From Embleya scabrispora (GTDB lineage: Bacteria; Actinomycetota; Actinomycetes; Streptomycetales; Streptomycetaceae), in contig NZ_MWQN01000004.1 in the NCBI RefSeq assembly GCF_002024165.1, positions 124,001 through 188,000 on the forward strand: DNA of 64,000 bases, written 5' to 3'. The notes beneath the pieces are model-generated. The model ran no database searches. It worked only from the letters and a program-made list of their open reading frames with translations, and was not told where the DNA came from. Position 1 is the first letter of the stretch, and each line of letters opens with the position of its first letter. A program made the position numbers and the translations under genes. Shown piece after piece: positions 10,964 through 43,779 of this stretch.

Positions 10964-11340
10964 GGGCGCCTCCAGGGGTCGGCGAGCGGGTCGAACGGGC
11001 CCCGCGGGATGACCTTGGCGAGGTCGGAGTCCGCCTCGTCGTCGGGCGCCGGCTCGATGGCAGGCGGATCGGAGACCGGCCGGTCCGTGGCGGTGGCCCG
11101 GTTGCGGGCGGCGACACGGCGGCCGCGACGGGACCGGTTGGACGGGCGGGCTCTCTCCTCGTCGGGGCCGTTGTGAGCACGGCCGAGCAGGGCTGCTGCC
11201 GCATCCGCGATCTGTTCCTCGGTTCCGCCCGGGGCCTGGGCGCGGGCGTGGTCCCAGGCCGACTCGCCGAACGGGACGCCGACGCGGTGCAGGTGCTTCC
11301 AGAACACAGTGATCCACCGGGCCGGCTGCGCCGGCGAAGC
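10960..11340 (-). pseudogene. tniA: TniA-type transposase, C-terminal fragment
   Basis: About 125 residues that read as the end of an actinobacterial TniA (rve/Mu-type DDE transposase): WITVFWKHLHRVGVPFGESA, then WDHARAQAPGGTEEQIADAA, a basic linker (RPSNRSRRGRRVAARNRAT), then LAKVIPRGPFDPLADPWRR. It overlaps the TniB start by four bases, the normal operon arrangement. The catalytic core is missing; at 11332-11340 the sequence switches to an integrase tail. Confidence 0.55.
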
Positions 11341-11488
11341 TGACGTGCAGTCCTTCAACCTCGCCGAGCCGGCCTTCGCGCTCGGCTTCGGCGATGCGGG
11401 CGATCAGGTTGTCGCGGATCTCGACCAGTCGGCGGCAGCGCGTCAGCGGCTGCGGGAAACCAGTGGCGTCTCTGTGGACGCGCCTCAT
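11332..11488 (-). repeat. Integrase C-terminal fragment, copy 1
   Basis: The minus strand encodes RCRRLVEIRDNLIARIAEAE, then REGRLGEVEGLHVSFAGA, the tail of an actinobacterial tyrosine-type integrase found with transposons. A second copy lies at 12397-12562 in the same orientation. Over the shared 52-base core only a handful of differences are seen. The two copies bracket the methyltransferase gene at 11502-12329. Confidence 0.55.
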
Positions 11489-19506: not shown

Positions 19507-20733
19507 CTACCGGTGGGACGAGCGGGTTGTCGGCGGTCCGTTCGGGGAGGCGAGGTGGAGGCCGATCCGGGTGACGGCTTCGGCGAAGCGGGCGGGTTCG
19601 GCCAGGCTCGTCAAGCGGATGTGGTCGCCCTTCGGGTGGTGCAGGCCGCTGCCGGGGGCGACCAACACCCCTTGCGTGCGCAGGAGTTCGCGGGCGAACG
19701 GCCCGTCTCGGCGGCCCGGCGGCAGGCGGGGGAAGAGGTAGAACGCCCCTCGTGGCCGGACGCAGCCGACGTCGGGCAGCCCGCGCAGCGCCCGCCACGC
19801 GCTCCGGTGTCGTTCGCGCAGCACACCGCCGGGCCCGGTCAACTCCCTCGCGGTCTGCTCGATGTCGCGCAGGGCGGGCACGATCGCGTGTTGCGCGGGT
19901 ACGTTGGGGCACAGGCGCAGCGACGCGATCAGGTGGAGTGCGCGCGCGTATTCGGCGGTGTGTCGGCGTGGACCGGTGAGCAGCATCCAGCCGACGCGGA
20001 ATCCGGGCACCCGATGGGTCTTGGACAGGCCGCCGAAGGTGAGGCAGGCCAGGTCGGGCGCGAGGCCGGCGAGGACGGTGTGCGGGGCGTCGTAGAGGAT
20101 GTGGGCGTAGATCTCGTCGGACAGCAGCGTCAGGCCGTGTGCGCGGGCGTGTTCGACCATGGCGTGGAGCACGGGGGCGGGCCACACCGCGCCGGTGGGG
20201 TTGTGGGGCGAGTTGACGACGAGCGCCACCGTCCGTGGTCCGGTCCGGGCGCTCAGGTCGGCGAGGTCGGGGATCCAGTCGGCGTTCTCGTCACAGCGGT
20301 AGTGCACCGGTGTTCCGCCGGCCAGGGTCACGGCCGCGGCCCACAGCGGGTATCCCGGGGCCGGCAGCAGGACTTGGTCGCCGGGGTCGAGCAGGGCGTG
20401 CAGGGCGACCTGGACGAGTTCCGAGACGCCGTTGCCGAGGGTGACGTCGTCGGGGTCGATGTCGTCGATTCCGCGGTCCCGGTAGTAGGCGGTGACCGCG
20501 TCTCGGGCCTGCGGTATGCCCTGGGAGTGGGCGTATCCGCACGAGGCGTCGAGGTTGCGCCGCACGGCGTCGAGCACGGCCGCCGGCGCGGCGACGCCGT
20601 GTTCCGCCGGGTCGCCCAGGTGGAGGCGGATGATGTCGCGCCCCTCCGCCTCGAGTTCGTCGGCGAGAGCGGCCAGCGGGCCGCGGATGTCGTAGGAGAT
20701 GGTGGAGATACGGGCGGCGGTCTTGAGGGCCAT
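19507..20733 (-). CDS. PLP-dependent aminotransferase class I/II
   Basis: 408 residues; the ATG follows AGGAA. Fold-type I features: substrate loop IIRLHLGDPAEHG, VSELVQVALHALLDPGDQVL, then LPAPGYPLW, N177 in VNSPHNPTG, D206 and Y209 in SDEIYAHILYD, the Schiff-base lysine K238 in GGLSKTHRVPGFRVGW, and the carboxylate-binding Arg in DHIRLTSL. It is closest in pattern to AlaA-like alanine/aspartate aminotransferases. As the last gene after the FAD oxidase and A-T-R synthetase on the same strand, it may aminate the aldehyde released by the reductase domain or supply the amino acid substrate. A hairpin precedes it. Confidence 0.9.
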   Translation of the reverse strand: MALKTAARISTISYDIRGPLAALADELEAEGRDIIRLHLGDPAEHGVAAPAAVLDAVRRNLDASCGYAHSQGIPQARDAVTAYYRDRGIDDIDPDDVTLGNGVSELVQVALHALLDPGDQVLLPAPGYPLWAAAVTLAGGTPVHYRCDENADWIPDLADLSARTGPRTVALVVNSPHNPTGAVWPAPVLHAMVEHARAHGLTLLSDEIYAHILYDAPHTVLAGLAPDLACLTFGGLSKTHRVPGFRVGWMLLTGPRRHTAEYARALHLIASLRLCPNVPAQHAIVPALRDIEQTARELTGPGGVLRERHRSAWRALRGLPDVGCVRPRGAFYLFPRLPPGRRDGPFARELLRTQGVLVAPGSGLHHPKGDHIRLTSLAEPARFAEAVTRIGLHLASPNGPPTTRSSHR

Positions 20734-20754
20734 GGTGGGATTCCTGGGGATGTG

Positions 20755-20791
20755 CGCGGGCCCGGTGGCGTCCACCGCCGCCGGGCCCGCG
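20755..20791. terminator. GC hairpin between FAD oxidase and aminotransferase genes
   Basis: CGCGGGCCCGG and CCGGGCCCGCG form an 11-bp perfect stem with a 15-base loop. It lies just beyond the stop of the FAD oxidase gene and 22 bases before the aminotransferase start. It could terminate or attenuate transcription inside the cluster. Confidence 0.45.
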
Positions 20792-20827
20792 CGTCGACGC
20801 CGCGTCGGCGCCGCGCGGGAGGGCCGG

Positions 20828-22096
20828 TCAGTGTCGGGCGGCACCGGCGGTGAGCAGGGCGTACCGACCTGCGGTGGAGATCAGTGGGCACACCGCGTCG
20901 ATCGCCGAGCGCACCGCTCCCTCCTGGCTGTCGGCGGTCGCGAGGTGGCTTCCCGCGAAGTACACGCCGTGGCGGCCCTGATGGACCCCGAGCGCGTGGG
21001 TCGCCAACGATCCGGCGACGGTGGGGCGCAGTTGTCGGTATTCGGCGCGGGCGATGACGTCGTGCGGCTCGTCGCGGTGGGTGACCCAACTTTTGAAGAT
21101 GTCGGCGCCCAGGACCGGACCCAGCCACACCGTGCTCTCGGCCCACGGATCGTCCACGGTGACGCAGGTGGTGGACCAGTGCGCCCGGTCGGGCGGCATG
21201 TGGACGGGGTCGCGGTGCAGGACCACGGTCGTGGGGACGTACTCGTACGACGCCAAGTGGGTTGCCGGGGCCTGGAGATCGGGGCAGCCGCGGAGCAGGT
21301 CCCGGGCTTGCGGGGCCTGCGTCGCGACGACGACCGCGTCGTAGCCGGTGGTTGCGGTCGCGTCGCGTACGTGCGGCCGGCCGTCCCGGATCTCGATCGA
21401 GTGCGCGGGCGTGCCGACGCGGACGGCGGTGTGGAGCGAGGCGGCGATCCGGCCGGCGACCTCCCCCAGTCCGGTGGCGAGCAGATGCCACACGGGTGCG
21501 GCGTCGGGGTGTTCGGGGGAGGCTCCGGTGGTCCAGACGGCGAGCGCCCGGGCGGGCATCTCGGCGGCCTGGTCGAGTGTGCAGCCGACGAGGGAGGCGC
21601 ACCATGCCAGGAAGGTGCCCCGTACCTCGTCGGGCGGCAGTGTGGCGGCCAGTTCGGCGACGGTGGTGGTGACGGGGCCGTTCTCGGCGTCCAGGCGGAC
21701 CACGTCGGCGAGCAGTGTCGCGAACGTCGCCGCGGCCGGGCCGCCCACCGGGGTACGGCCGGTGGCCCCGTCCGCCGGGGAGTCCGCGGTGACCAACGTC
21801 GGTGTCGCGTGTCCCGCCCGTGCGAACGTGGCGGTCATCGGGACGTTCAGGGTGTGGTCGGCCGCCAGCCCCAGGGCCCGGCGCAGGGCGGTGTGACAGG
21901 GGTATGCGGTGGGGGAAAGCAGTTGGGCGCCGAGGTCGACGGGCAGGGCGCCGTCGCCGGCGCCCTTGACGGGGATCGTGTGGATGTTGCCGCCGACCCG
22001 GTCGGCGGCCTCGTGGACGGTGACTCGATGTTCCTCGTCGAGCAGCCAGGCGGCGGTCAACCCGGCGATGCCCGCGCCGATGACGGCGATGCGCAT
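20828..22096 (-). CDS. FAD-dependent amine oxidase-like oxidoreductase
   Basis: 422 residues. The dinucleotide-binding N-terminus MRIAVIGAGIAGLTAAWLL is followed by the GG motif (HEAADRVGGNIHTIP) typical of the NAD(P)-binding/flavin amine oxidase superfamily. The C-terminal FAD motif is GVYFAGSHLATADSQEGAVR. Such proteins oxidise C-N or C-C bonds, sometimes in carotenoid or alkaloid pathways. The gene starts 25 bases after the synthetase stop codon, so the two are co-transcribed. A plausible role is oxidation of the amine or cyclic imine made from the synthetase product; this is inference. Confidence 0.88.
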   Translation of the reverse strand: MRIAVIGAGIAGLTAAWLLDEEHRVTVHEAADRVGGNIHTIPVKGAGDGALPVDLGAQLLSPTAYPCHTALRRALGLAADHTLNVPMTATFARAGHATPTLVTADSPADGATGRTPVGGPAAATFATLLADVVRLDAENGPVTTTVAELAATLPPDEVRGTFLAWCASLVGCTLDQAAEMPARALAVWTTGASPEHPDAAPVWHLLATGLGEVAGRIAASLHTAVRVGTPAHSIEIRDGRPHVRDATATTGYDAVVVATQAPQARDLLRGCPDLQAPATHLASYEYVPTTVVLHRDPVHMPPDRAHWSTTCVTVDDPWAESTVWLGPVLGADIFKSWVTHRDEPHDVIARAEYRQLRPTVAGSLATHALGVHQGRHGVYFAGSHLATADSQEGAVRSAIDAVCPLISTAGRYALLTAGAARH

Positions 22097-22121
22097 GTTC
22101 TTCTCCCTGTGTTGGATGCGG

Positions 22122-25100
22122 TCAGCGCGCGTGCGGTCGATCCGGGTGGTCGGGCGGCTGCAGGAAGCCGGACGAGACGAAGTAGCGCAGATACATGTCC
22201 AGCAGGTCGGCGTCGACCGGAGGGCAGGTCAATCCGGAGTCGGCCAGGGCCTCGTCGAGATTGGCGCGGCCGAAGTCCGGGAAGGTGCCGGCGAAGTACA
22301 TCTCCTTCACCGAGATGTCCGCGTCGTGCGCGGACTCCAGGAACATCGGCATGAACGGCGCCATCGGCTGGTCGGGATCGCGTGCGGTCAGGGCCGCCAT
22401 GTACGAGACCCATTCGTCGTAGGAGACGGTGCGAATGGGGTAGCCCATCGCGCGCAGCCGCTCCACCAACGCTCCCAGCCGCGCGTCATGCGGGTTGGCG
22501 ATGTTGTAGGCGTGTCCCCACGCGGCCTGTCGGGCCAGGATGTGCACGATGGCCCGGGCGGTGTAGTCGACGGGTACGAAGTCCAGCGGCAGCGGGATGT
22601 CGGGGGCCAGGCCCGTCTCGGCGATGCTGCGAAACAGCGCGCACATCATCGTGTCGGTGTTCCAGATGCCTTCGTCGGTGGTCCCGGTGATCTCGTAGGG
22701 TCGGTACACGGCCGTCGCGAGGCCCTGTTGCGCGGCCTGTGCCACCAGCCGCTCGGCCACCCACTTGCTCTCGGGGTAGCCCAGCGAGATCCGGTCGCCG
22801 AAGCGCAGCGGTTCGTCCTCCTCCACCCGGTCGACGCCGGAGACGCCGAAGCCGGCGATCACCGCGATGGTGGACACGTAGTGCAGGATCTTGGCGGTGC
22901 CGCGCGAGGCGAGGTCCAGCACGGTGCGGGTGCCGCCCACGTTGCTCTCGCGCAGTGCGGCGTAGGGGTAGGCGAAGTTCACCTGCGAACCGGCGTGCAG
23001 GATCGTGTCGACCGACTCGCTCAGCGCGTCGAACGCGGCCTCGTCGAGGCCGAACCGCGGCTGCTTCAGGTCGCCGAGCACGAGGGTGACGCGTTCGTCC
23101 AGGCGTGTGGGGTCGAGCCCGTAGCGACGCATGCGCGCGGCCAGTCGGCGCCGGCCCCGGTCTTCGTTCGGTGCCCGGACCAGGCACACGACCTTCTCGG
23201 CGAGTCCGTCGTCGAGAAGGGCGTCGAGCAGGTAGGTGCCCAGGAACCCGGTGGAGCCGGTGAGGAACACCAGTCGGCCGGTGGTGGGCGGTTCCTGCGC
23301 GGAGGGAAAACGCCGCTCGGGGTCCAACCGCGCCTCGGCCTCGAAGTCCACCGCGTCCTCGGCGGTGTCCTGGCCCGGGTCCTCGATCAGTGACGCGACA
23401 CGGGCGGCGAACGCGCCCAGTGTCGGGTTGTCGAGCAGGACGCGGATCAGGAACCGGCTGTGCCCGGGATCGAGGTCGAAACGGGCACGACAGGCCGCCG
23501 CGACGCGGGTCGCCTGGAGCGAGTTCCCGCCCAGGGCGAAGAAGTCCGTGTCGCGGCCGATGGTCTCGACCCCGACGACCTCCGACCACACCTCGGCCGT
23601 CGTCTTTTCCACGGGTGTGCGCGGATCGGGGCCCTCGGCGGTGTCGGCCTCGGCCCGCTCCTGCGCCTCGCGCAGCAGCCGCCGCCGGTCGAGCTTGCCC
23701 GAGTCGGCCAGCGGCAGCGAGGAGCGCACCAGGATGGGCCGCGGCACCATGTACTCGGGCAGCCGGTCGCGCAGGTAGTCGCGCAATTCCCCGGGCAGTT
23801 CGCCGGCGTCGGCGTCCTCGGCGGCGGTGACCCAGGCGATCAGCGATTCCCGGTCGCCTTCGTGCGAGGCGACCGCCGCCGCCTCGCGTACGTGGTCGTG
23901 CTTGGTCAGGTGCGCCTCGATCTCGTCGAGTTCGATCCGGTAGCCGCGGACCTTGACCTGGCGGTCGCGCCGTCCGAGGAATTCCAGGACACCGTCCTCG
24001 CGCCACCGGGCCAGGTCGCCGGTGCGGTACAGCCGCCCGGTGGCGTCCGGGGTGAAGGGATCGTTCACGAAGTGGTCCTCGGTCGCCTTCGGCCTGCCGA
24101 GGTATTCCAGGGCCACGCCGTCGCCGCCGACCCACAGTTCGCCGCTCTCGCCCGCGTCGGCGAGTTCGCCGTCGGAGGTGAGCACGTACGCGGTGGAGTT
24201 GGCGACCGGCGTGCCGATCGGCACCGTCCGGGCGTCCGGGGCGAGTTCGGTGATCTCGTGCACGGTGGACAGCGACGCGTTCTCGGTGGGCCCGTAGCCG
24301 TTGAGCAGCGCCCCGGGAGGGCCCTCGGCCAGGACCTGACGCACCGCTTCCGGCGAGAGCGCATCCCCGCCCGCGATCAGCATGCGCAGACCGGAGAACA
24401 TCGCCGGGCGCACCATGGCCATCTGGTGGAACAGCCCCGCGCTCAGCCACATGACCGTCACGTGCTCCGCGCGCAACACCTCCGCCAGCGAGTCGGCCGC
24501 CAGGAGCGCGTCGACCTCCGCCACGACCAGGCACGCCCCGTTGAGCAGGGCGGCGAACATCTCGAAACAGGAGACGTCGAACGTCGGATTGGTGGTGGCC
24601 AACAGCACGTCGCGCGACGACAGGCGCAGGCGCGGGTCGCCCTCGCGCACCAGCCGCACCTGACCCCGGTGCGAGACGACCACGCCCTTGGGCTCGCCGG
24701 TGGAGCCGGACGTGTAGATGACGTAGGCGGGGTCGTCGGGGCCGACCCGGACCGAACGCGCGGCGCCCGTGGACTCCGGCAGATCGTGTACGTCCACCAC
24801 GGCCGGGCCCTCGGCCAGGTCGTCCAGCGACGCGCGGTGGCGCTCGTCACTGATCGCGACCCGCACCTCGGCGTCGGTGAGCGTCTGGGTCAAGCGGCGT
24901 TCGGGGTAGTCCGGATCCAGGGGCAGGTAGGCCGCGCCGGCGCTGAGCACGCCCAGGACCGCGGTGACGCACTCGATCGACCGCGGCAGTACCACCGCCA
25001 CCACGTCGCCCGGCCGTACGCCCTCGGCGACCAGCCGGTCGGCCAACCGCTCCACGTCCGAGCGCAGTTCGCGATAGGTCAGGCGACGGTCGCCGCGCAC

Positions 25101-25253
25101 GATCGCGGGTGCGTCCGGGGTGCGCTGCGCCTGGCGGGCGAACAGTTCGTGCACGGTCGCCTCGCGCGGATAGTCGGTGTGCACATCGTTGATCTCCCGC
25201 ACCACGGCCACATGGCGCGCGCGCGAGGTGTCGTCCCGGTCGGGGGCTGACAT
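22122..25253 (-). CDS. Mono-module NRPS: adenylation-thiolation-thioester reductase
   Basis: 1043 residues. Adenylation domain (about 30-525): A3 YTSGSTGEPKGVV (180-192), FDVSCFEMFAALLNG (D226 binds the amino group), A5 NGYGPTENAS, A7 YRTGDLARW, A8 RQVKVRGYRIELDEIE and the catalytic lysine K520 in SGKLDRR. Thiolation domain: FFALGGNSLQ with S578 for phosphopantetheine. Reductase domain (about 660-1035): GSTGFLGTYLLDALL for NADPH and YPESKW (Y-x-x-x-K). There is no condensation domain. The enzyme should activate one amino acid and release it reductively as an aldehyde or alcohol, like Lys2-type or carboxylic acid reductases. The D226 context argues for an alpha-amino acid substrate. A 44-codon frame precedes it. 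Confidence 0.95.
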   Translation of the reverse strand: MSAPDRDDTSRARHVAVVREINDVHTDYPREATVHELFARQAQRTPDAPAIVRGDRRLTYRELRSDVERLADRLVAEGVRPGDVVAVVLPRSIECVTAVLGVLSAGAAYLPLDPDYPERRLTQTLTDAEVRVAISDERHRASLDDLAEGPAVVDVHDLPESTGAARSVRVGPDDPAYVIYTSGSTGEPKGVVVSHRGQVRLVREGDPRLRLSSRDVLLATTNPTFDVSCFEMFAALLNGACLVVAEVDALLAADSLAEVLRAEHVTVMWLSAGLFHQMAMVRPAMFSGLRMLIAGGDALSPEAVRQVLAEGPPGALLNGYGPTENASLSTVHEITELAPDARTVPIGTPVANSTAYVLTSDGELADAGESGELWVGGDGVALEYLGRPKATEDHFVNDPFTPDATGRLYRTGDLARWREDGVLEFLGRRDRQVKVRGYRIELDEIEAHLTKHDHVREAAAVASHEGDRESLIAWVTAAEDADAGELPGELRDYLRDRLPEYMVPRPILVRSSLPLADSGKLDRRRLLREAQERAEADTAEGPDPRTPVEKTTAEVWSEVVGVETIGRDTDFFALGGNSLQATRVAAACRARFDLDPGHSRFLIRVLLDNPTLGAFAARVASLIEDPGQDTAEDAVDFEAEARLDPERRFPSAQEPPTTGRLVFLTGSTGFLGTYLLDALLDDGLAEKVVCLVRAPNEDRGRRRLAARMRRYGLDPTRLDERVTLVLGDLKQPRFGLDEAAFDALSESVDTILHAGSQVNFAYPYAALRESNVGGTRTVLDLASRGTAKILHYVSTIAVIAGFGVSGVDRVEEDEPLRFGDRISLGYPESKWVAERLVAQAAQQGLATAVYRPYEITGTTDEGIWNTDTMMCALFRSIAETGLAPDIPLPLDFVPVDYTARAIVHILARQAAWGHAYNIANPHDARLGALVERLRAMGYPIRTVSYDEWVSYMAALTARDPDQPMAPFMPMFLESAHDADISVKEMYFAGTFPDFGRANLDEALADSGLTCPPVDADLLDMYLRYFVSSGFLQPPDHPDRPHAR

Positions 25254-25294
25254 GGGGGATTCCCGTCTTTTGGTGGAGGGTCGCTGAAACGTCT

Positions 25295-25429
25295 TCACCG
25301 TTTTCCATGACTCGATGCATTGCCGGCGAATATTGTCCGGAAATCCTTGGGATCCATCCGTGGAAACGGCTCTGGTGATTCTCCGGCCACTCCCTTCACC
25401 TGCGTGTCGTATTTCTTGGTTTCGATCAT
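25295..25429 (-). CDS. Candidate 44-aa peptide before the synthetase gene
   Basis: An ATG frame of 44 residues beginning MIETKKYDTQVKG and ending FAGNASSHGKR, 41 bases upstream of the synthetase start on the same strand. Only a little over half of its codons end in G or C, far below the neighbours, and no Shine-Dalgarno sequence is seen. It may be a small leader or precursor peptide, or simply part of an A/T-richer untranslated leader. I treat it as unproven. Confidence 0.25.
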   Translation of the reverse strand: MIETKKYDTQVKGVAGESPEPFPRMDPKDFRTIFAGNASSHGKR

Positions 25430-25833
25430 CGGAATCACGCCGGCGGCACGCTTCGAGAAATATGTGATCGAATATCGAGAGCAGCCGCGGTGGTGTATCC
25501 AACTTTCCCGGAGTCGATCCATCCGCCAGCACCCCGACCTGCGGATTTCGACCCATCCGTGGCGTGCGAAACATGGCGGGTCCGCCCCGGGGGCGTCGCG
25601 TCGGGGCGAAACCGGAACCCGTCCTGTCGATATCGAATTCCCACACTCGGGCAACCGGGGTTCGATTGGTATCGATGCGGCCGGGTAGCCGCCCCGGCAC
25701 AGGAGACCGCCATCGGCGGACCGGTCCGAAGATCGGTTCGGGAATCGATCCATGGACCGGCCATCGGCGGCTCTTTTCGATTTCAAAACTCCCGAGAAGG
25801 CGACCTCGCCGGGCACCGGCCTCAGAAAGGACC
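25430..25833. promoter_or_regulatory. Divergent promoter region, synthetase versus TenA-like gene
   Basis: Around 400 bases of unusually A/T-rich DNA for this genome between divergent genes. It includes the self-complementary GGACCGGTCC near 25720. No cluster-situated regulator is encoded nearby, so a global or distant factor must act here. No gene can be supported in it. Confidence 0.4.
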
Positions 25834-26484
25834 ATGATGAGTGTCGAGCAGCTGATCGAAACCATGCGACCCGATGTCGAACGGTGCATCGAGGGCAACG
25901 AGACCGTCGCACGCGTACGCGCCGGAGACGTGGACCGGGAACTGCTCCAGCGCCTGGTGATCGCGGAGTTCAACTGCCAGGAGGCCGAACTGGTCACCTA
26001 CGGGCTCCTGGTCGCGCGCCACCACGACGACGCGCCGTTGAACCTCTTCGCCCTCGTCGTGCAAACTCTGGCGCAGGCACGCCTGTTGCTGGCCGAGGCG
26101 GCTCGGTCGGTCGACCTGCGGCCCGAGGAATTCTCCGTCTCCACCAGCGGACGCCTGGCCCGCGCCGTCGGCAGTCTGATCGCGCCGGGCATGCTCGGCA
26201 AGCCCGGCGGGGTGGCGCTGTACGTGCACAGCGACCTGGCCGTCTGGTGTCCGCTCTACGGCCGAATCGCCGCCGCGGGGCGCAAGTTGGGCAACATACC
26301 GGTACCGCTCATCGAGTACATGGAGTGGTGGGGAAGCGAACCTGCCCCGGAGTTCGTCGACAAGTCCGCCGAGACGATCGCCTACGGGCTGGAGCACGGC
26401 GAGGACCCCGAGGACATCCTCGAGGCCGCCCGCCAACTCGACTCGATCGTCGCCGACTACTGGGGGTTCGTGCACGACAAGTGA
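25834..26484 (+). CDS. TenA/haem-oxygenase-fold protein
   Basis: 216 residues; the ATG follows AGAAAGGACC. It is all-helical with the TenA-like pattern: QRLVIAEFNCQEAELVTYGL, then LVARHHDD, a long middle helix, PLYGRIAAAGRKLGNIPVPL, then IEYMEWWGSEP, and a final helix LDSIVADYWGFVHDK. Glu/His/Asp residues are spread over four helices, so a metal-dependent member of this fold (as in haem-oxygenase-like diiron oxidases) is possible, but the classical ligand spacing is not clear enough to claim it. It is divergent from the A-T-R synthetase and probably belongs to its pathway. Confidence 0.65.
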   Translation: MMSVEQLIETMRPDVERCIEGNETVARVRAGDVDRELLQRLVIAEFNCQEAELVTYGLLVARHHDDAPLNLFALVVQTLAQARLLLAEAARSVDLRPEEFSVSTSGRLARAVGSLIAPGMLGKPGGVALYVHSDLAVWCPLYGRIAAAGRKLGNIPVPLIEYMEWWGSEPAPEFVDKSAETIAYGLEHGEDPEDILEAARQLDSIVADYWGFVHDK

Positions 26485-26625: not shown

Positions 26626-27156
26626 TCAGGTCGTCGTGCGGGCGGGCGCGGTGAGTCGTTCGGGGTCGAGGCCCGTCGCGGTCACCGTCCCGTGCGCGTC
26701 GATCACGCCGAACGCCGGATACCCCGTGATCGCGAAGGCGGTACCCAGCGGGCGTTCGGGCGACGCCTCGACCACGACGCGAGCGATGTCGCGAAGGGCC
26801 GCCACCTGTGCGCGGGTCGTCGCGACGTCACCGTGCAGCACGGCGAGCACGCTGCGACCGCTCTCGCGTCGGGCCGTCTCGACGAACCGCGGCAAACGCT
26901 CGGTACACGCGCGACAGTTCGGCGAGAAGAACCCGAACAACGTTTCGCCCAGGCCTTCTCGCGTGATCGTCTCACCGGTCGTGGTCACCGCGGAGAAGTG
27001 CGGCACGGTCGAACCGACGGACAGCAGGAGATCCGCGGCCCCGGGGCGCGAATGATCGCGCTGTGCGCGGAGTTTGCGGACGATCCCGAAGGTCAGCAGC
27101 AGATTCAGCAGGCACAACACCGTGAGGACCACGACGGCGGCGATCAGGAACGGCAT
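26626..27156 (-). CDS. Membrane-anchored TlpA/thioredoxin-like protein
   Basis: 176 residues. Residues 1-26 are one membrane helix (FLIAAVVVLTVLCLLNLLLT), leaving the rest probably outside the membrane. The thioredoxin-like domain starts at GSTVPHFSAVTTTGE and carries the redox pair C81/C84 in FFSPNCRACTERLP, the usual position after the first beta strand. The cis-Pro region is TGYPAFGVID. The gene follows the MauE-like gene after four bases, with GGGAGG inside the upstream coding end. With that partner it forms a disulfide-exchange unit. Its divergence from two Cys-rich peptide genes suggests it forms or isomerises their disulfides. Confidence 0.88.
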   Translation of the reverse strand: MPFLIAAVVVLTVLCLLNLLLTFGIVRKLRAQRDHSRPGAADLLLSVGSTVPHFSAVTTTGETITREGLGETLFGFFSPNCRACTERLPRFVETARRESGRSVLAVLHGDVATTRAQVAALRDIARVVVEASPERPLGTAFAITGYPAFGVIDAHGTVTATGLDPERLTAPARTTT

Positions 27157-27160
27157 GGCG

Positions 27161-27706
27161 TTACCTCCCGATGGGGCCAGGGGCGGAACCGAGATCGAAC
27201 AGTTCGGCCAGTTCGTCGGTGGAGATCAGTACGAGTGCTCCGATCACCGCGCACGACACCGCCGTCAGGGCGCCGGCGAGGTGCGTCGGGTTCGACGCTC
27301 CGGCCGCGCCGAGGGCCAGTCCGGTTCCGGCGACCGTGATCAGCACGGCGTTGCGCACCACGTGCCGGCGGCCGATCGGCGTCGCGGACGCGCCGAAGCA
27401 CGCGCACGACGCGTTCGTTCCCCGGCGCAGCGCGCCGAGGATGGCGATCGTGAAGGCCGTCAACAGCGGCAGGGCGAGGGCGAATCCCACGAATCCGTTC
27501 GGTGGTGCCGCGAGCGACAGTGCCGCGGCGATCTCGCCCACGACCACGGCGATCGCGATCGAGCGCGCCCGCCGGGCCGGCGCTCCCAGTTCCCTCGTGG
27601 CCTCGACGAAAGCGCGAAATGCCTCGCCACCACGTAGTTTTCCGCCTGCGGAGGCCACCAGGACGAGGCCCAGGAGCACGCGGCACGCGAGTAACGCGTA
27701 TCCCAT
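27161..27706 (-). CDS. MauE/DoxX-type redox-associated membrane protein
   Basis: 181 residues with four to five hydrophobic helices (starting ACRVLLGLVLVASAGGKLRG) and the diagnostic C-x-C-F-G motif (C101, C103) after the third helix, as in MauE proteins. MauE-like proteins shuttle electrons between the membrane and periplasmic thiol oxidoreductases. An AGGG ribosome-binding site precedes the ATG. The gene is first in a two-gene unit with the thioredoxin-like protein and diverges from the Cys-rich peptide/exporter operon over about 470 bases. Confidence 0.87.
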   Translation of the reverse strand: MGYALLACRVLLGLVLVASAGGKLRGGEAFRAFVEATRELGAPARRARSIAIAVVVGEIAAALSLAAPPNGFVGFALALPLLTAFTIAILGALRRGTNASCACFGASATPIGRRHVVRNAVLITVAGTGLALGAAGASNPTHLAGALTAVSCAVIGALVLISTDELAELFDLGSAPGPIGR

Positions 27707-27953
27707 CGATCGCCCTCGCTTCCCTCCACCGGACCGACCGATCGAGGCAATGTAACGCGTTGCCGGCGTTCGCGACAGAGCCGGCGAACGCCGTGTCCGC
27801 GCGCCGCCCGAGGCGGCCTGCGATACGGCAACTTCGTTGTGTGTCAGGCGTGTTCACGGCATGAACCGTTCCGCTCCGGGGTACCGGGCGGGCGGCGCCG
27901 GTACGCGGCCCGCGCCGAGTGGGCATCGGCGAGCACACGTTGGACGACACTAT

Positions 27954-27971
27954 TGCGGTCCGTCGACCGCA
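27954..27971. promoter_or_regulatory. Inverted repeat between the two peptide-system operons
   Basis: TGCGGTC and GACCGCA are perfect 7-base arms around CGTC. It lies 248 bases upstream of the MauE-like start and 205 bases upstream of the first peptide, the only clear dyad noticed in the intergenic region, so it could be a shared operator. The rest of 27707-28175 holds no supportable gene. Confidence 0.35.
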
Positions 27972-28175
27972 CGCCCTAACGTCTCGTTCCGGTGAAGGCG
28001 CTCGACGGCTTTCCCGGTTCCACCCGTGCCGGAAGGTCCGCGATGAACGCGTGATCGAAACCCTGGGTGCTGAAATCGGCGTGATCGCTTTTCGGAACGA
28101 CCGTTCGGGCACGTCCCCGATGACGATCGGCGCAGCAACGCCGATCCACTGGACGACGGACTTCGGAGGTTCACG

Positions 28176-28346
28176 ATGAAGGGCACCATCGCAAGACTCG
28201 GTGACCGGCTCCTGGAACTCGCCCTCGGCCGGGGGCAGGCAGGCGCCTGCTACGACGACATGGGCCAAACGTGTGCGTGTGTCGACGGCTACGAGTATCG
28301 CTACGACTGCTGGGACCGCTGCCTCCCGACCCGCTTCCCCTGCTGA
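28176..28346 (+). CDS. Cys-rich precursor-like peptide 1 (56 aa, six Cys)
   Basis: A GGAGG ribosome-binding site seven bases before the ATG supports translation. The N-terminal 24 residues form an amphipathic, Cys-free leader-like helix (IARLGDRLLELALGRGQAG). The C-terminal 32 residues contain all six cysteines: C25, C33, C35, C45, C49 and C56, the last being the final residue, together with many Tyr/Asp. There is no ordinary signal peptide. Ten bases downstream lies a clear paralogue, followed without a gap by an exporter and a signal peptidase. This arrangement is that of a leader-bearing secreted peptide whose core is held by three disulfides. I know of no named family with this pattern. 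Confidence 0.7.
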   Translation: MKGTIARLGDRLLELALGRGQAGACYDDMGQTCACVDGYEYRYDCWDRCLPTRFPC

Positions 28347-28356
28347 AGGCGGCACG

Positions 28357-28524
28357 ATGAGGGCGATCGTGGCAAGGTTCGATCGGCTCCCGGGACTGGT
28401 CTCGGGACGGGAGCCGGCCGGCGTGTGCGTCATGGGCATGGTCCGGGCATGCGCGTGTCGGGGCGGCGTCGAGGACCGCCACGACCGCCCGGGCACCTGC
28501 GTACGAACCGGCTTCCCCCGCTGA
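28357..28524 (+). CDS. Cys-rich precursor-like peptide 2 (55 aa, four Cys)
   Basis: A paralogue of the preceding peptide that aligns over its whole length with one residue of offset. The leader is IVARFDRLPGLVSGREPAG. Shared core features are C24, the CAC motif (C32, C34), an Asp at 43, C48, and T-x-F-P near the end. The two cysteines missing relative to peptide 1 (its C45 and C56) are both arginines here (R44, R55), each one transition away (TGC to CGC). The stop codon overlaps the ATG of the ABC exporter as TGATG, so the two are translationally coupled. Confidence 0.65.
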   Translation: MRAIVARFDRLPGLVSGREPAGVCVMGMVRACACRGGVEDRHDRPGTCVRTGFPR

Positions 28525-30398
28525 TGTCGACCTCGGCCGGGACCGGCGAGGGTGACACGTCACCGGCGGCCCGACTGCGGCCCCGAGCGGCGAAAGTCGC
28601 GTTGACCCTCCAGTTTCGGGCGGCGCCGGTCGGGGCCACGCTCATGTTCGCCGCGACGGTGGCGGTCGGCGTGCTGCCGGCCGCTGCCGCGTGGCTCACC
28701 AAGCTCTTGTTCGACGAACTCGCGCGCGGCGATCACATCGACAAGGGCCGTGTCGTCGCGCTCGCCGTCGCGGTGGCGGGGATCGGCGCGGTCGCGACGG
28801 TACTCGTCCAACTCACCGGCTATCTCAATGAGTTGGTGCGACGCAGACTGGTGGCGACGGTCGAGCGCGACCTGTTCGCCAAGGTCGACGAGTTCCGGGG
28901 CCTGCGCCGGTTCGAGGACCCCGCGTTCCATGATCGCCTGCGGCTCGCGCAGCAGGCATCGCAGGACGCGCCGCACAACATCACCATGTTCACGCAGGAG
29001 GTGTTGCGCTCGGTCGCGTCCCTGGGCGCGTTCGTCGGCGTGCTCTTCGCGGTGTGGCCGCCGATGGTGGGGCTGCTCCTGCTCTGCGGCGGCGCCGCGC
29101 TCCTGGCACGTCTGTCCATGGCACGGCGCCAGGTCGCGGTCTGGGAGATGACGTCCGGGCGCCAACGCCGGCGGTTGTTCTACCGATCCCTGCTGATCGA
29201 CCCGCGCGCGGCCAAGGAGATCCGGCTGTTCGGACTCGGCGGTTTCCTGCACGCGCGGCTGGTGCGCGCACTCGCCGACGCCACCGACGCCGAACTCGCG
29301 GTCGCGCGTCGCACCGCGCTCGTGCAATCGGGATTCGCCGCCCTGAACGCGCTCGTCGCGGGTCTGGGCATGGTCGTCGTCGTGATCGGCGCCGCCGACG
29401 GCCGATTCGGCGTCGGGGACGTGACGCTCTTCGTCGCCGCGTCGGCGGGCGTGCAGGGCGCGTTCACCGGCGTGGTCATGCAGGCGGGCCTGGCCGCGTC
29501 GGGAGTGCGCCTCCTCGGCCACTACCTCGCGCTCATGGACACGCCCGACGACCTGCCCGGAGGCGCCGATCCGGTACCGGCCCTGCGCGATCGCATCGAG
29601 TTCCGCGATGTGTGGTTCCGCTACGACGCCGACGGGCCGTGGGTGCTGCGCGGCGTCGATCTCGTCGTGCCGGCCGGCCACACGATCGGTCTGGTGGGGC
29701 GCAACGGCGCCGGCAAGAGCACGCTGATCAAACTGCTGTGTCGGTTCTACGACCCCGAACGCGGCACGATCCGCTGGGACGGTGTCGACATCCGCACGAT
29801 GAGCGTGGTCGAACTGCGCCGCCGTGTCGGCGCGACCTTCCAGGACTACATGGCGTACGACCTGACCGCCGCCGAGAACATCGGCGTCGGCGACGTCGCG
29901 CACCGCGAGGACCGGGCACGGGTGCGCGAGAGCGCGAACCTCGCCGGCATCGACGCCGACCTCGCGCGCCTTCCCGACGGATACGACACCCAGCTCAGCC
30001 GCGTCCATCGCGACGAGGACGACGCCAGGGGCGGCGTCACGCTTTCGGGCGGACAGTGGCAGCGGGTCGCGCTGGCCCGCTCGCTGATGCGCCGAGACAC
30101 CGACCTGCTCATCCTCGACGAACCGAGCGCGGGCCTGGACCCGGAGGCCGAACATCGGGTACACCGCACGCTGCGCCGGCATCGTCGGGGGCGAACGAGC
30201 CTGCTCGTGTCGCACCGCCTCGGCGCACTGCGCGACGCCGACACGATCGCGGTGCTCGACAACGGCCGCATCGTCGAATCGGGACGCCACGACGAGCTGA
30301 TGGCATTGCCCGACGGGCACTACGCCCGGCTGTTCGCGCTCCAGGCCGCCGGATACGCGGGCCACGCGGGGCCGACGATCGTCGAGGAGACGCGGTGA
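28524..30398 (+). CDS. ABC exporter, fused TMD-NBD (peptide export)
   Basis: 624 residues. It has six membrane helices in residues 30-330 and a nucleotide-binding domain with Walker A GRNGAGKST (392-400), Q-loop TFQDYMAYDL, signature LSGGQWQRVALARSL, Walker B LLILDEPSAGLDPE and switch His in LLVSHRLG. There is no N-terminal C39 peptidase domain, so leader removal must be done by another enzyme. The start codon overlaps the stop of the second Cys-rich peptide, and the stop overlaps the start of the S26 peptidase (GTGA). The strict coupling makes the peptides the likely cargo. Confidence 0.93.
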   Translation: MSTSAGTGEGDTSPAARLRPRAAKVALTLQFRAAPVGATLMFAATVAVGVLPAAAAWLTKLLFDELARGDHIDKGRVVALAVAVAGIGAVATVLVQLTGYLNELVRRRLVATVERDLFAKVDEFRGLRRFEDPAFHDRLRLAQQASQDAPHNITMFTQEVLRSVASLGAFVGVLFAVWPPMVGLLLLCGGAALLARLSMARRQVAVWEMTSGRQRRRLFYRSLLIDPRAAKEIRLFGLGGFLHARLVRALADATDAELAVARRTALVQSGFAALNALVAGLGMVVVVIGAADGRFGVGDVTLFVAASAGVQGAFTGVVMQAGLAASGVRLLGHYLALMDTPDDLPGGADPVPALRDRIEFRDVWFRYDADGPWVLRGVDLVVPAGHTIGLVGRNGAGKSTLIKLLCRFYDPERGTIRWDGVDIRTMSVVELRRRVGATFQDYMAYDLTAAENIGVGDVAHREDRARVRESANLAGIDADLARLPDGYDTQLSRVHRDEDDARGGVTLSGGQWQRVALARSLMRRDTDLLILDEPSAGLDPEAEHRVHRTLRRHRRGRTSLLVSHRLGALRDADTIAVLDNGRIVESGRHDELMALPDGHYARLFALQAAGYAGHAGPTIVEETR

Positions 30399-30976
30399 CC
30401 GGAAGCCGGCGCGAGACGACGAGCGCGCGGGCGGCGCCCGGCGGCATGGTGGGGTCGGCCGTTGTCGCGACGGTGATCCTGGTGCTGGCCGGAGCACGCG
30501 CGTTGCGCTCGCGCCTCGCACTCGTCCGGGTGACCGGCACGAGCATGGCGCCGACGTTCGCCGACGGCGACCGCGTGCTGGTCGACTGCGCCGCGCCGGT
30601 ACGTCGGGGGGACGTCGTCGTGTTCCGCAACCCGACCGCCGCCCTGGGCGCGGATCGGGATCCGCGCTGGCTGGTCAAACGGGTCGCGGCGGTGCCCGGC
30701 GATCCCGTACCGGTCGAGATGCGCGACGTCGTACGCGCCCCGAACGACGGTGTCGTGCCCGCGGGTTCGCTGGTGGTGCGCGGGGACGCGCCGCGTTCCC
30801 ACGACTCACGCCACTTCGGATACGTGCCGGCGTCCACCGTCCTGGGCGTGGTCGGGGCCGGCCCCCGAATCCCCTGGCCCGTGGCCCGCGGGCGGTGGCG
30901 TCGTCCCGATCGATCCGCGAACACCCGCCCGCACACGGCACCTCTCCCCCGCGCCGGACAATCCCCCGGCCGGTGA
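30395..30976 (+). CDS. S26-family signal peptidase
   Basis: 193 residues from a GTG that overlaps the exporter stop. One N-terminal membrane helix (residues 18-35) anchors the enzyme. Box B holds the nucleophile S50 (VTGTSMAPTFADGDRVLVD), box D the general-base lysine K95 (RWLVKRVAAVPGD), and box E is GDAPRSHDSRHFGYVP. It is therefore a complete type I signal peptidase of the small actinobacterial type. The main housekeeping enzymes lie elsewhere, so a copy coupled to an exporter lacking a peptidase domain is likely dedicated to trimming the Cys-rich peptides. Confidence 0.92.
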   Translation: MTGSRRETTSARAAPGGMVGSAVVATVILVLAGARALRSRLALVRVTGTSMAPTFADGDRVLVDCAAPVRRGDVVVFRNPTAALGADRDPRWLVKRVAAVPGDPVPVEMRDVVRAPNDGVVPAGSLVVRGDAPRSHDSRHFGYVPASTVLGVVGAGPRIPWPVARGRWRRPDRSANTRPHTAPLPRAGQSPGR

Positions 30977-40479: not shown

Positions 40480-41020
40480 GAACACACCATGCACGACGCC
40501 CGATCCGCTCCATCCACCGGACCCACGCCCGCGACGGTCCTGCGACCCGCACTCCGACGAGCGAACGGCCGGCCTCGGCGCGGCCCTCGACGCCGGACGC
40601 CCTTTGGCGCCAGGGCGGTTCCCCACCGCCGAGCCCCGCGAACGCCTGCACACCGACCTCGCCCGCGCCTGCCGACAACTCGGCAAACCCGATCGGCTCG
40701 CTGATGGCGCGGCGATGGACGGCCGTCTCTCGTGTCAGGATCCGTTGCTGACGTTGTTGCGCGCACGACACGCCATTCGCGACGGTCGCCACCATGTCTC
40801 CGGACTATCGGCGCGGCGCATCGACGTGGCCGGCGGTACAGCAGCCGGGACGATCCGCCGGACGATCGCGCGGTGGATCCCTCACGCGCGTGTCCGCGGC
40901 GTGCGCCGCCGGCCGGGCCGGAGTTCTCTGATCGCCTGACGACGCCAAATGGCGGCGGCTACCCTCGGTTTCCGGGGAGCGCGGACCGCCTTCGGCGTCC
41001 GCGAGACGGACGGGGGAACC
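40480..41020. other. Interval without a supportable gene
   Basis: 540 bases upstream of the trypco2/NACHT operon. A plus-strand frame around 40540-40780 (ERLHTDLARACRQLGKPDRL) has coding flavour but no start or family. The operon promoter must lie in the last 200 bases. Confidence 0.35.
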
Positions 41021-41377
41021 ATGGGCGCCGATCAGGCGGGTATCGAACTCGCCAGCGCTGTACAGTCGTTGCGCGACGAGTTGATCGAGGCTGCGGCCCG
41101 GGGCGCCGGCCGGAACGTACGGTTCACGGTGGAGACCATCGAGTTGGAGTTCACCGTGGAGTTGCGGGAGGACACCACAGGCAAGGCCGGCGTCAAGGCC
41201 TGGGTGATCTCCGCGGGGGCGGAGGCGTCGCTGGGCAGGACGAACACGCACCGCGTGAAACTGGCGCTGAGCGCCAGGGACACCACGACCGGCCGCGCGC
41301 TGGAGATCGGCAACCCCGACCGCGGCAGCACCTCGGGCTTCACGCACGAGAATCCGGGCGACGACGGCGGCAGCTGA
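41021..41377 (+). CDS. Trypco2-family protein
   Basis: 118 residues with the trypco2 pattern: an N-terminal helix IELASAVQSLRDELIEAAAR, then strands NVRFTVETIELEFTVELRED, a helical turn and KAWVISAGAEASLGRTNTHR, then VKLALSARD. Trypco2 domains are described in predicted bacterial conflict systems together with trypsin-like peptidases and STAND/NACHT NTPases. That is exactly what follows here: the stop codon overlaps the start of the trypsin-NACHT gene (TGATG). It is probably the substrate or adaptor of the peptidase. Confidence 0.75.
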   Translation: MGADQAGIELASAVQSLRDELIEAAARGAGRNVRFTVETIELEFTVELREDTTGKAGVKAWVISAGAEASLGRTNTHRVKLALSARDTTTGRALEIGNPDRGSTSGFTHENPGDDGGS

Positions 41378-43779
41378 TGCACCCGCACCGCTCGCGCGTT
41401 GCCGCCGTGTTCGGTACCGGCCAGGGCAGCGGATATCTGCTGAGCCCGCGCCTGATCCTCACGTCCGCTCACGTCGTGGGCGGCACGACTGCCGACGCGA
41501 TCGCGATCGGCGGGGCCGGGGAGGTGTCCTGCGATGTCGTGTGGCGACGCAAGGACGCGCAGTGCGACGCGGCGTTGCTGATGGCCCGCGCCGATCTCCT
41601 GCCGGACAACGCGCCGGACGTCTTCGCCGCCCCGCTCCGCTGGGGCGAATTCACGACCTTACGCCCGTGGGACGACGGCCAGACCATCGGATTCCCCCAG
41701 GTGCAGCGCGGTGACCGGAACCAACTCGACACCGAGCATGTGACGGGGCGGATCAAACCGGGGTCGTCGCTGCTTCGCGGTCGGTACGTACTGGAGGCGA
41801 CCGGCACGGCACCGGATTCCGCATCGGCGTGGTCGGGCCTGTCCGGTGCCGCTCTCTTCGCCGGCACGGCGTTGGTGGCGGTGGTGGATCAGGCGCCGAT
41901 CGGGTGGGGCCACGGGCGAGTGGAAGCGGTCCCGGTCCGCGTGATCGCCGACGACCGCGGTTTCCAGGCGGCCGTGCGCATGTACGGAGAGCTGGACGTC
42001 GTCGTGGAAACACTGGACCCGGTCCCCGACGACGAGCGCCGTGACCGCGCGTTCGAAACGGAATATCGGGCATACATCGCCCGCCGCCACGCGAATGTCG
42101 AGACGCTCGGGGACACCGAGAGCGACCGGATCGTGCTGCCGCTCGACTCCGCTTTTCTGGCTCTCGAGTTGGCCCGGACGTCTCCGCGCATTCGCCTGGA
42201 CGGGGTCGACCCCGGCGCGGAGACCGACGTCGGAAAGCGCATGCATGAAGCGATGTCCGGCCGCACGCGCATCCTGCTACAGGGCGCGGCCGGTTCCGGC
42301 AAGACGACGCTCATGCAGTGGCTCGCGGTGCGCACGGCTCAAGGGGACCTGCCACCGGAGCTGAGTCGGCTGGAGAACCGAGTTCCTTTCGTGATCCCCC
42401 TGCGTGCCCTCGGCGACATGCGACGCGGCCCCGAGGCCGAGCAGTTGCCGAGCGCCCTGGGGTACCCGGCCGCGGCCGCCCAGCCGCCGAACTGGTCGGC
42501 GCGGCTCTTCAGGCAAGGGCGCGGCCTGCTCCTGGTGGACGGCATCGACGAGATCCTCCGCGAACACCGCCCCAGGGTGCGCTCGTGGCTGGAGGGCTTC
42601 CTGTCGCTGTATCCGGAGACCGCGGTGGTGGCGACGTCCCGGACCTCGGCGATTCCGTACGACTGGCTACCGGGGTACGCGTTCACGACGCTGAGCGTGC
42701 TGCCCATGAGCCCGGCGGACGTGGACCGCTTCATCGATCGTTGGTTCGGCGCCATGGCCGACAAGCCGGAGTGGCACTGGGCCAGAGACCAGGTCGAGGG
42801 AACCGGCGCCCGAGTACGGGAGCAACTGGCTACCCGGCCCAACCTTGCCCAGCTGGCCGCCAATCCCCGGCTGTGCACGCTGATCTGCAAAACGGCGCTG
42901 CTCAGCGGCCACAGACCGCCGGAGAGTCCGCTGTCGCTCCACGAAGCCGCTCTGGACCTCCTGCTGCACCGACGTGACGCGCAGCGGGGATTCGCCGCCA
43001 CCGAAGGCGTCCACTTGCATCATTCCGAGCAGGGGCTGCTTTTCGAGGCGCTGGCCTCGTGGATGGTGGTCAACGACCAAACGGACATGGGATACCCGCG
43101 GGCCCGGAAGATCATCAGACGCGCCGGTCCGCGCAGCCTTCGCACCAAGTACACCGAGGCAGTCCTACAGCACCTGGTGGTGCGCAGCGGAATCCTGCGC
43201 GACGTCGGGGACGACAGCTTCGCCTTCGAACACAGCACCTTCCGCGACTACTTCGCGGGCCGGGCGTTCGCGGCAGACGGCCATGTCGGTTTTCTGGTGA
43301 AGAACGCGCACGATCCGGCCTACGAAGACGTCGTCCGCATGACGGCCGGGCACTGCCAGGGCCGCGACGCCGACTCCCTGTTGGCGGCGCTGGTCGCCCG
43401 TGGCGACCGCGAGCCCGTTCACCGGATGCGCCTCCACGTACTGGCGGCCTCATGCCTCGACTACACGGTCCAGGTCGACCCGGCGGTGCGCGCGGCCGTT
43501 TCCCGGCGCGTCGAGGTGCTGATGCCTCCGGACGACGACGCGGCCGCCGATGTACTGGCGGAGGTCGGACCGATGGCGCTGCCCCTGCTGCCGACTCCGG
43601 ACGGTCTCTCCGCCGATCAGGCGCGCGCCGTCGTCCTGACGGCGTGCAAGATCGGCGGCCCGGGAGCGGTTGCCGTGCTGGAACGCTTCGCGGCGTTCGA
43701 CGACTCCGTGGTCCGGGAACGCGTGCGCTGGGGGCGCGAACGCGTCGGCTCGCCGCCGGCATCAGCGTTCGCGGACTGA
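41377..43779 (+). CDS. Trypsin-like peptidase fused to NACHT NTPase
   Basis: 800 residues. The N-terminal trypsin fold has the triad H32 (LILTSAHVVGG), D64 (QCDAALLMA) and S156 (WSGLSGAALFAG). The NACHT module follows: Walker A QGAAGSGKTTLMQWLA (from 302), Walker B LLLVDGIDEILRE (384-396), the sensor arginine segment VVATSRTSAIPYDWLPGY, and a winged-helix/helical region with FAFEHSTFRDYFAGRAFA, the conserved end of NACHT domains. The C-terminal 130 residues are helical and may form a short sensor superstructure. Such proteins act as NLR-like immune sensors; activation of the peptidase on ligand binding is the expected mechanism. It is coupled to the trypco2 gene. Confidence 0.92.
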   Translation: MHPHRSRVAAVFGTGQGSGYLLSPRLILTSAHVVGGTTADAIAIGGAGEVSCDVVWRRKDAQCDAALLMARADLLPDNAPDVFAAPLRWGEFTTLRPWDDGQTIGFPQVQRGDRNQLDTEHVTGRIKPGSSLLRGRYVLEATGTAPDSASAWSGLSGAALFAGTALVAVVDQAPIGWGHGRVEAVPVRVIADDRGFQAAVRMYGELDVVVETLDPVPDDERRDRAFETEYRAYIARRHANVETLGDTESDRIVLPLDSAFLALELARTSPRIRLDGVDPGAETDVGKRMHEAMSGRTRILLQGAAGSGKTTLMQWLAVRTAQGDLPPELSRLENRVPFVIPLRALGDMRRGPEAEQLPSALGYPAAAAQPPNWSARLFRQGRGLLLVDGIDEILREHRPRVRSWLEGFLSLYPETAVVATSRTSAIPYDWLPGYAFTTLSVLPMSPADVDRFIDRWFGAMADKPEWHWARDQVEGTGARVREQLATRPNLAQLAANPRLCTLICKTALLSGHRPPESPLSLHEAALDLLLHRRDAQRGFAATEGVHLHHSEQGLLFEALASWMVVNDQTDMGYPRARKIIRRAGPRSLRTKYTEAVLQHLVVRSGILRDVGDDSFAFEHSTFRDYFAGRAFAADGHVGFLVKNAHDPAYEDVVRMTAGHCQGRDADSLLAALVARGDREPVHRMRLHVLAASCLDYTVQVDPAVRAAVSRRVEVLMPPDDDAAADVLAEVGPMALPLLPTPDGLSADQARAVVLTACKIGGPGAVAVLERFAAFDDSVVRERVRWGRERVGSPPASAFAD

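Follow-up and report, generated by a model that had tools for sequence, protein, structure and literature searches.

A putative export, trimming and disulfide-forming cassette for Cys-rich peptides in Embleya scabrispora and its relatives

Three candidate families of ribosomally synthesized and post-translationally modified peptides (RiPPs) with mauE, one of them also with mauD, were described in Streptomyces by decRiPPter (Kloosterman et al., 2020; PMC7794033). Each precursor in these families has at least eight Cys, and a role in precursor modification was suggested and a speculated disulfide role of MauE noted (PMC7794033). Here, a locus is examined in a 64,000-nucleotide stretch of the actinomycete Embleya scabrispora (assembly GCF_002024165.1, contig NZ_MWQN01000004.1, positions 124,001 to 188,000; this whole stretch is hereafter the window), in which two small Cys-rich peptides are encoded beside an ATP-binding cassette (ABC) exporter, an S26 signal-peptidase-like protein, a MauE/DoxX-type membrane protein, and a TlpA-like thioredoxin. 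From its sequence, this set is very probably a dedicated line for making, exporting, trimming, and oxidising disulfide-rich peptides. The window shares with the decRiPPter families a mauE gene beside a Cys-rich precursor and differs from them in that its peptides have six and four Cys rather than at least eight (PMC7794033). Going by their descriptions, those families are likely the same family as the present cassette, which is thus anticipated in part by that work as the same kind of locus; as far as the accessible parts of the paper go, they give no product, no shared leader, no S26 peptidase with an AxA end, no even Cys parity, no six-Cys cores, and no spread outside Streptomyces. The strongest new points are the leader that the peptides have in common, the parity of their Cys, the [AV]xA at the leader end together with an intact S26 protein, and the occurrence on plasmids and outside Actinomycetota. 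Among the matches listed in the open full-text literature, to which subscription papers mostly do not belong, no named class or isolated product was found for such a cassette, and the decRiPPter paper is the only one that connects mauE with precursor peptides. An earlier note on this DNA, made from the letters alone, had held that the set fits no RiPP class that can be named; this stands insofar as no named class was found, although decRiPPter had already listed candidate RiPPs that combine mauE with a Cys-rich precursor.

Several better characterized systems share single features with this locus. Cinnamycin-type lantibiotics have an AxA-ended leader that is cut by a type I signal peptidase, and carry thioether rings; no match to LanC falls in the window. 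Glycocins such as sublancin combine a C39-type exporter with a glycosyltransferase, whereas the window exporter has no peptidase domain. For the same reason, and because the leaders carry [AV]xA ahead of the core, the locus is not of the C39 double-glycine bacteriocin type. What it has in common with the glycocins is the use of dedicated thiol-disulfide oxidoreductases for a secreted bacterial peptide (PMC9266682). Class I lasso peptide clusters also encode DoxX and thioredoxin proteins (SviE/SviF and HumE/HumF), and one DoxX/thioredoxin mutant was affected in export (PMC9266682; PMC7168211). The likeness lies in a secreted peptide with Cys that is encoded next to a DoxX-type membrane protein and a CxxC thioredoxin; the lasso clusters differ in that they encode the maturation enzymes B and C and that their peptides have a macrolactam. 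No B or C enzyme was recognised among the 40 most recurrent neighbour frames described below or among 19 window proteins scanned with Pfam, which are a part of the window. The staphylococcal bacteriocin TMcin follows the same logic of a leader protease, a dedicated disulfide enzyme, and an ABC exporter, but it is described as a transmembrane-helix peptide with an S2P protease, the DsbA-type TmcD, an escort protein, and a single disulfide, all from unrelated genes (PMC13252029). At the window, the peptide sequence has no hydrophobic helix and the linked protease is of the S26 rather than the S2P type.

All six reading frames claimed in the earlier note were located, at the place and with the gap and overlaps given there. 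On the forward strand, peptide 1 (28176..28346; 56 amino acids, six Cys) starts at an ATG with GGAGG six bases 5' of it and comprises a predicted leader, MKGTIARLGDRLLELALGRGQAGA (28176-28247, +), and a predicted core of 32 amino acids (28248-28343, +). A gap of 10 bases separates it from peptide 2 (28357..28524, +; 55 amino acids, four Cys), a diverged and probably degenerate copy. A TGATG overlap joins peptide 2 to the exporter (28524..30398, +; 624 amino acids), which has membrane and ATPase domains (Pfam ABC_tran, with ABC_membrane matching below cut-off) and, as had been claimed, no peptidase domain in a Pfam scan. The exporter is joined in turn by a GTGA overlap to the S26 protein (30395..30976, +), the predicted leader peptidase, which matches Peptidase_S26 with an expectation value (E) of 2.5e-22 and retains the Ser (in GTSMAPT) and the Lys (in KRVAAVPGD) of the catalytic dyad that the earlier note had called intact. 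The two divergent genes that it had described were also found: the MauE/DoxX-type protein (27161..27706, -; Pfam MauE, E 3.6e-25), a predicted electron or disulfide relay, has its CxC within SCACFG, and the membrane-anchored TlpA/MauD-like thioredoxin (26626..27156, -) has a hydrophobic N-terminus and a CRAC motif, with a weak Pfam AhpC-TSA match (2.2e-4) and an NCBIfam MauD match (7.1e-6) that are both below cut-off. The segment that separates mauE from peptide 1 (27707..28175) presumably holds the promoters. In the host genome (10.96 Mb, 8 contigs), none of the 8 lanthionine cyclase, 1 YcaO, and 23 radical SAM matches falls inside the window, in agreement with the absence of such genes reported earlier. 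A second, complete cassette is encoded elsewhere in the same genome (L009), with all parts on one strand: a 53-amino-acid peptide with six Cys, MauE, TlpA, S26, and an exporter 50% identical to that of the window. The window itself also carries a second ABC exporter (47446-49653 and 49176-49547, both +), whose ATPase is split over two frames near 49180 and whose end is 51% identical to the cassette exporter; this is either a pseudogene or a sequencing error.

In the proposed scheme, the ribosome would produce a precursor of about 55-80 amino acids with a charged, amphipathic leader and an even-Cys core of 31-58 amino acids. The leader would be recognised by the ABC exporter and the precursor moved out of the cell, where the membrane-bound S26 protein of the cassette would cut after [AV]xA at the outer face of the membrane. 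The outward-facing MauE and the TlpA-like protein would then pass electrons such that the core Cys pair as disulfides, with three such bonds predicted for the core of peptide 1. The even numbers of Cys, the [AV]xA with which the leaders end, and the preserved catalytic residues, all considered below, fit export, trimming, and oxidation and so support the earlier note in these three steps; the knotted form that it gave the product is a putative one.

The distribution of the cassette was followed from MauE. When 41 relatives were searched with the MauE of the window, 16 of them had matches, and of the first 21 loci (20 from relatives, together with L009), 20 had an exporter 43-55% identical to that of the window and 20 had S26. 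A collection of one genome per species (84,980 species) was then scanned with a MauE alignment (A2), which yielded 87 relatives and 80 named loci that were retained; since the alignment consisted of the 7 closer rows, these 80 are biased towards MauE proteins with CFGASx[AT]P. They belong to Streptomyces, Nonomuraea, Embleya, Actinomadura, Streptosporangium, Micromonospora, and other genera, and a complete cassette in the myxobacterium Corallococcus sicarius (L108, 8095-11849) indicates that the system crosses phyla. Of 394 genomes sampled from the class, 50 had a MauE match at 1e-12, not all of which need be cassettes. With an exporter counted as present at a profile score of at least 300 bits, 63 of the 80 MauE-selected loci had one, and all 63 had TlpA. 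S26 was found in 61 of them, the exceptions being L074, which stops at a contig end, and L071. A Cys-rich, leader-bearing peptide was present in 62 of the 63, in 61 cases by the leader profile and in one by eye (L108: 61 amino acids, eight Cys, leader end SAGA ahead of the first Cys); the sole locus without a peptide is L075, where the sequence starts at a contig end, 1.3 kb ahead of MauE. Of the 17 loci with no exporter at 300 bits, four (L050, L065, L070, which is at a contig end, and L087) keep a peptide, two (L066 and L083) resemble broken cassettes of the window type, and the remaining 11 are MauE genes with no cassette in the stretch read. In the Streptomyces macrolidinus locus L083 (9833-10303, +), the end of MauE is fused in frame to a peptide-like leader, apparently through a deletion.

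A second sample was obtained by searching a plasmid collection with exporter proteins only. This gave 29 records, from which 12 cassettes in 12 records were read, with 15 S. clavuligerus repeats and 2 S. atratus repeats left out; also left out were second places in some records (e.g., Nonomuraea gerenzanensis), of which two, L123 and L124, were used as orthologues of the window. It should be noted that some of these records are chromosome-sized, that the S. atratus and NBC_01727 cassettes are near-copies of earlier loci, and that those of NBC_01562 and NBC_01340 are identical. Each of the 12 cassettes has MauE, TlpA, and S26 along with one or more leader-bearing peptides, and a Streptomyces clavuligerus plasmid carries the full gene set with two peptides. 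The earlier note had named, as an outcome that would speak against it, homologous loci with conserved enzymes but no peptides; a peptide was instead found in 62 of the 63 named and all 12 plasmid-collection cassettes. In all five annotated plasmid records the peptides are annotated as hypothetical proteins, next to genes for ABC and S26 proteins and for MauE/DoxX or TlpA, and transposase or integrase genes lie near the cassette in four of the five, which suggests that it is mobile. Gene order is variable, with 21 layouts among 65 cassettes, 28 of which have the order peptide-MauE-TlpA-ABC-S26; the divergent two-peptide layout of the window is common to Streptomyces olivochromogenes and Streptomyces sp. 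NBC_01549 (L041 and L042). Additionally, the 40 most recurrent frames around the 63 cassettes and the window were listed, many of them antisense to the exporter. The recognised recurring neighbour is a BTAD/SARP-type regulator, present at 24 of 63 cassettes and confirmed by Pfam in three examples; none turned up at the window, L041, or L009. About 10 loci share one or another of a few further frames, and no immunity gene was recognised among the 40, for which no search by name was made.

Across these cassettes the peptides share a leader. A profile built from 16 leaders and iterated over six-frame segments of 102 stretches, in which some of the first 21 loci duplicate named ones, recovered 95 peptides at 23 bits or more, while the next frame reached only 15 bits and had no Cys. 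Peptide 1 scores 27.5 bits. The window thus holds every part of the cassette (leader, even-Cys core, ABC, S26, TlpA, and MauE), with peptide 2 qualifying by parity only, as the profile did not find it. An alignment of 77 leaders gives a consensus of about LGDRLLxRLVPKATAxA, and in 78 of 78 distinct leaders [AV]xA stands ahead of the first core Cys (AxA in 71, VxA in 7), as compared with an average of 50 and a maximum of 63 of 78 when leader tails are shuffled. Such small residues in positions -3 and -1 are the mark of sites cut by type I signal peptidases. The leaders are charged throughout, and their longest run without charged residues or His has a median of 6 and a maximum of 13 residues. 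These charges, and the lack of a long hydrophobic run in most leaders, argue against a Sec signal and with it against Sec export of the peptides, for which the exporter would be the natural carrier.

The cores, in contrast to the leader, vary widely, but their Cys count is even in 94 of 95 cores; it is so in 82 of the 83 that are distinct and, after clustering at 60% identity, in 50 of 51 clusters. Of 3,700 further small frames with at least four Cys in the same DNA, 62% have an even count, so that 50 even clusters of 51 would not be due to chance (about 1e-9); this probability is only a guide, as the clusters are related, and single linkage at 40% leaves 11 clusters, in all of which the commonest count is even. 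All 15 peptides of the plasmid sample also have an even count, with 4, 6, or 8 core Cys, and some cores in the wider family have 8 or 10. Over 19 independent pairs of relatives, the ratio of nonsynonymous to synonymous differences per site (pN/pS) is 0.39 and every Cys is kept in 19 of 19; the peptide family is under purifying selection. Structure models were made for peptide 1 (from 6 sequences) and for a second subfamily (from 16 sequences). Both are small beta-sheets beyond residue 30, with a predicted local distance difference test score (pLDDT) of 82-87 over residues 31-56 of peptide 1, where there are three strands, and of 83-91 beyond residue 30 of the second subfamily; the leaders score 45-49 over their first 20 residues. 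Comparison of the peptides with Pfam and NCBIfam gave no credible match, that of both subfamilies with PDB sequences no significant match, and fold searches with the peptide 1 model gave a best E of 1.9 (Foldseek) and no Z of 2 or more (VIA-align). Two locust serine-protease inhibitors of 33-35 residues appeared at chance level (E 4.8 and 9.4) and are a lead only. An origin of the CHVVGG peptides from the light chain of methylamine dehydrogenase was considered and dropped, as there was no profile match over cut-off.

The catalytic residues of the enzymes, read from alignment columns for 75 cassettes, are nearly invariant. The Ser and Lys of S26 are kept in 73 of 73 proteins, the CxC of MauE (as CxCFG) in 75 of 75, and the CxxC of the TlpA-like protein in 74 of 75.

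Close orthologues of the window locus are four in the Embleya group (L123, L124, L137, and L138), each with an exporter 77-79% identical to that of the window, TlpA, S26, and two peptides. Together with L041 and L042, they encode 12 orthologous peptides, two each, and all 12 have six Cys. The window peptide 2 alone has four, with Cys 4 and Cys 6 replaced by Arg; moreover, one leader residue is missing and Val replaces Ala before the expected cut. The two window peptides differ from one another with pS 0.38 and pN 0.32, which is less per site than from the compared peptides of L123 and L124 (pS 0.53-0.67 and pN 0.43-0.51), although peptide 1 has as much as 50-51% local identity to a G002 peptide. 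From these comparisons, peptide 1 is probably the working gene and peptide 2 probably a diverged, decaying copy. The earlier description of two Cys-rich peptides thus holds for the presence of both frames, less so for peptide 2 as an active precursor, given its lost Cys 4 and Cys 6. If these two residues were partners, their joint loss would weakly suggest a 4-6 bond, although one in five random pairs would do as well.

A number of observations weigh against the proposed line of export, trimming, and oxidation. In none of the four close Embleya orthologues is MauE at the locus, and it lies elsewhere in each record or genome; MauE can therefore probably act from another cassette, or else is not essential. 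The system is self-contained, as had been claimed, at the window, where MauE is in place, and is not so in these four. The pN/pS of the window peptides is 0.64-0.92, as compared with 0.27-0.47 among orthologues, with silent sites partly saturated in the window comparisons. The leader and cut-site figures are partly circular, as the leaders that went into the profile ended in Cys. For this reason the plasmid sample was sought by exporter only; it was chosen without the leader profile but read with it, with 13 of its 15 peptides at 20 bits or more and two at 16. One core, that of L057, has an odd number of Cys (7), the L040 TlpA-like protein has CxxT instead of CxxC, and whole-model confidence is modest for both subfamilies (predicted template modelling scores of 0.41 and 0.44). 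Further, 13 of the 80 MauE loci hold neither a full exporter nor a peptide, and in L050 and L065 a peptide, MauE, TlpA, and S26 occur with no such exporter in the stretch read, such that export there, if active, would be by another carrier. Finally, lasso DoxX or thioredoxin mutants are reported to have still formed disulfides (PMC9266682).

Other explanations concern the enzymes, the Cys, or the peptides themselves. Export and oxidation could proceed as proposed while a housekeeping signal peptidase, rather than the linked S26 protein, removes the leader. AxA is a generic type I signal peptidase motif, gene order varies such that S26 precedes the peptide in 9 of 65 cassettes with one layout, and no S26 was found in L071; yet an S26 protein is present in 61 of the 63 named cassettes and in all 12 from the plasmid collection, Ser and Lys are kept in all 73 that were aligned, and we regard a housekeeping enzyme as unlikely to be the one at work. 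It is likewise rather unlikely that the Cys bind copper or zinc and that the peptides are exported, metallothionein-like carriers whose thiols are kept reduced by MauE and TlpA. TlpA and MauD relatives can be reductases, some cores contain CxC and CxxC pairs, and P0005 has a very weak match (E 0.082) to HvfX, a copper-binding RiPP maturation family, but against metal binding, all save one of the 83 distinct cores have an even number of Cys, the models show the cores as small beta-sheets, and no metal transporter was recognised among the 40 most recurrent neighbour frames, most of which were not further annotated.

The family names and the Pfam MauE match could also be taken to mean that MauE and TlpA serve methylamine dehydrogenase or cytochrome maturation and stand beside the peptides by accident. 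This is very improbable, as the linkage of MauE and TlpA to the peptides recurs in many genera and as the methylamine dehydrogenase light chain (PF02975) has no match over cut-off in the host genome or in nine cassette genomes; cytochrome maturation genes were not searched for. That the small frames are chance products of GC-rich DNA accords with their shortness and with their lack of credible Pfam or NCBIfam matches, but a conserved leader, a ribosome site, purifying selection, and the annotation of hypothetical proteins in this position in five of five annotated plasmid records leave hardly any probability for it.

The window also encodes features apart from the cassette. A small natural-product cluster (19507-25997, -) comprises a single-module adenylation-peptidyl carrier protein-reductase (A-PCP-reductase) protein, an aminotransferase, and a flavin amine oxidase. 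A protein with a trypsin-like peptidase and a NACHT domain (40732-43779, +) has a layout known from STAND defence proteins, and a TniB-type AAA protein (10094-11488, -) is part of a transposon.

As for what the exported peptides do, our best guess is that a secreted peptide of this kind is antagonistic or signalling, with antagonism given about an even chance. More broadly, and with less assurance than for the assignment of the window locus itself, we think it probable that the cassettes represent a large class of ribosomal natural products that has no name as yet, in which a conserved export-trim-oxidise cassette serves disulfide miniproteins that are hypervariable but follow a constant leader, in the manner of venom peptides, carried on Actinomycetota chromosomes and plasmids and reaching Myxococcota. 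The combination of leader, even Cys count, MauE, TlpA, ABC, and S26 would provide a search rule where Pfam and NCBIfam have none for the peptides, and the cassette would offer a handle on the function of MauE-type proteins. Disulfide-rich miniproteins are stable, drug-like scaffolds that have been described mostly from animals and plants. If the reading of the cassette is true, a constant leader with widely varied cores would give bacteria a general way of making such miniproteins.

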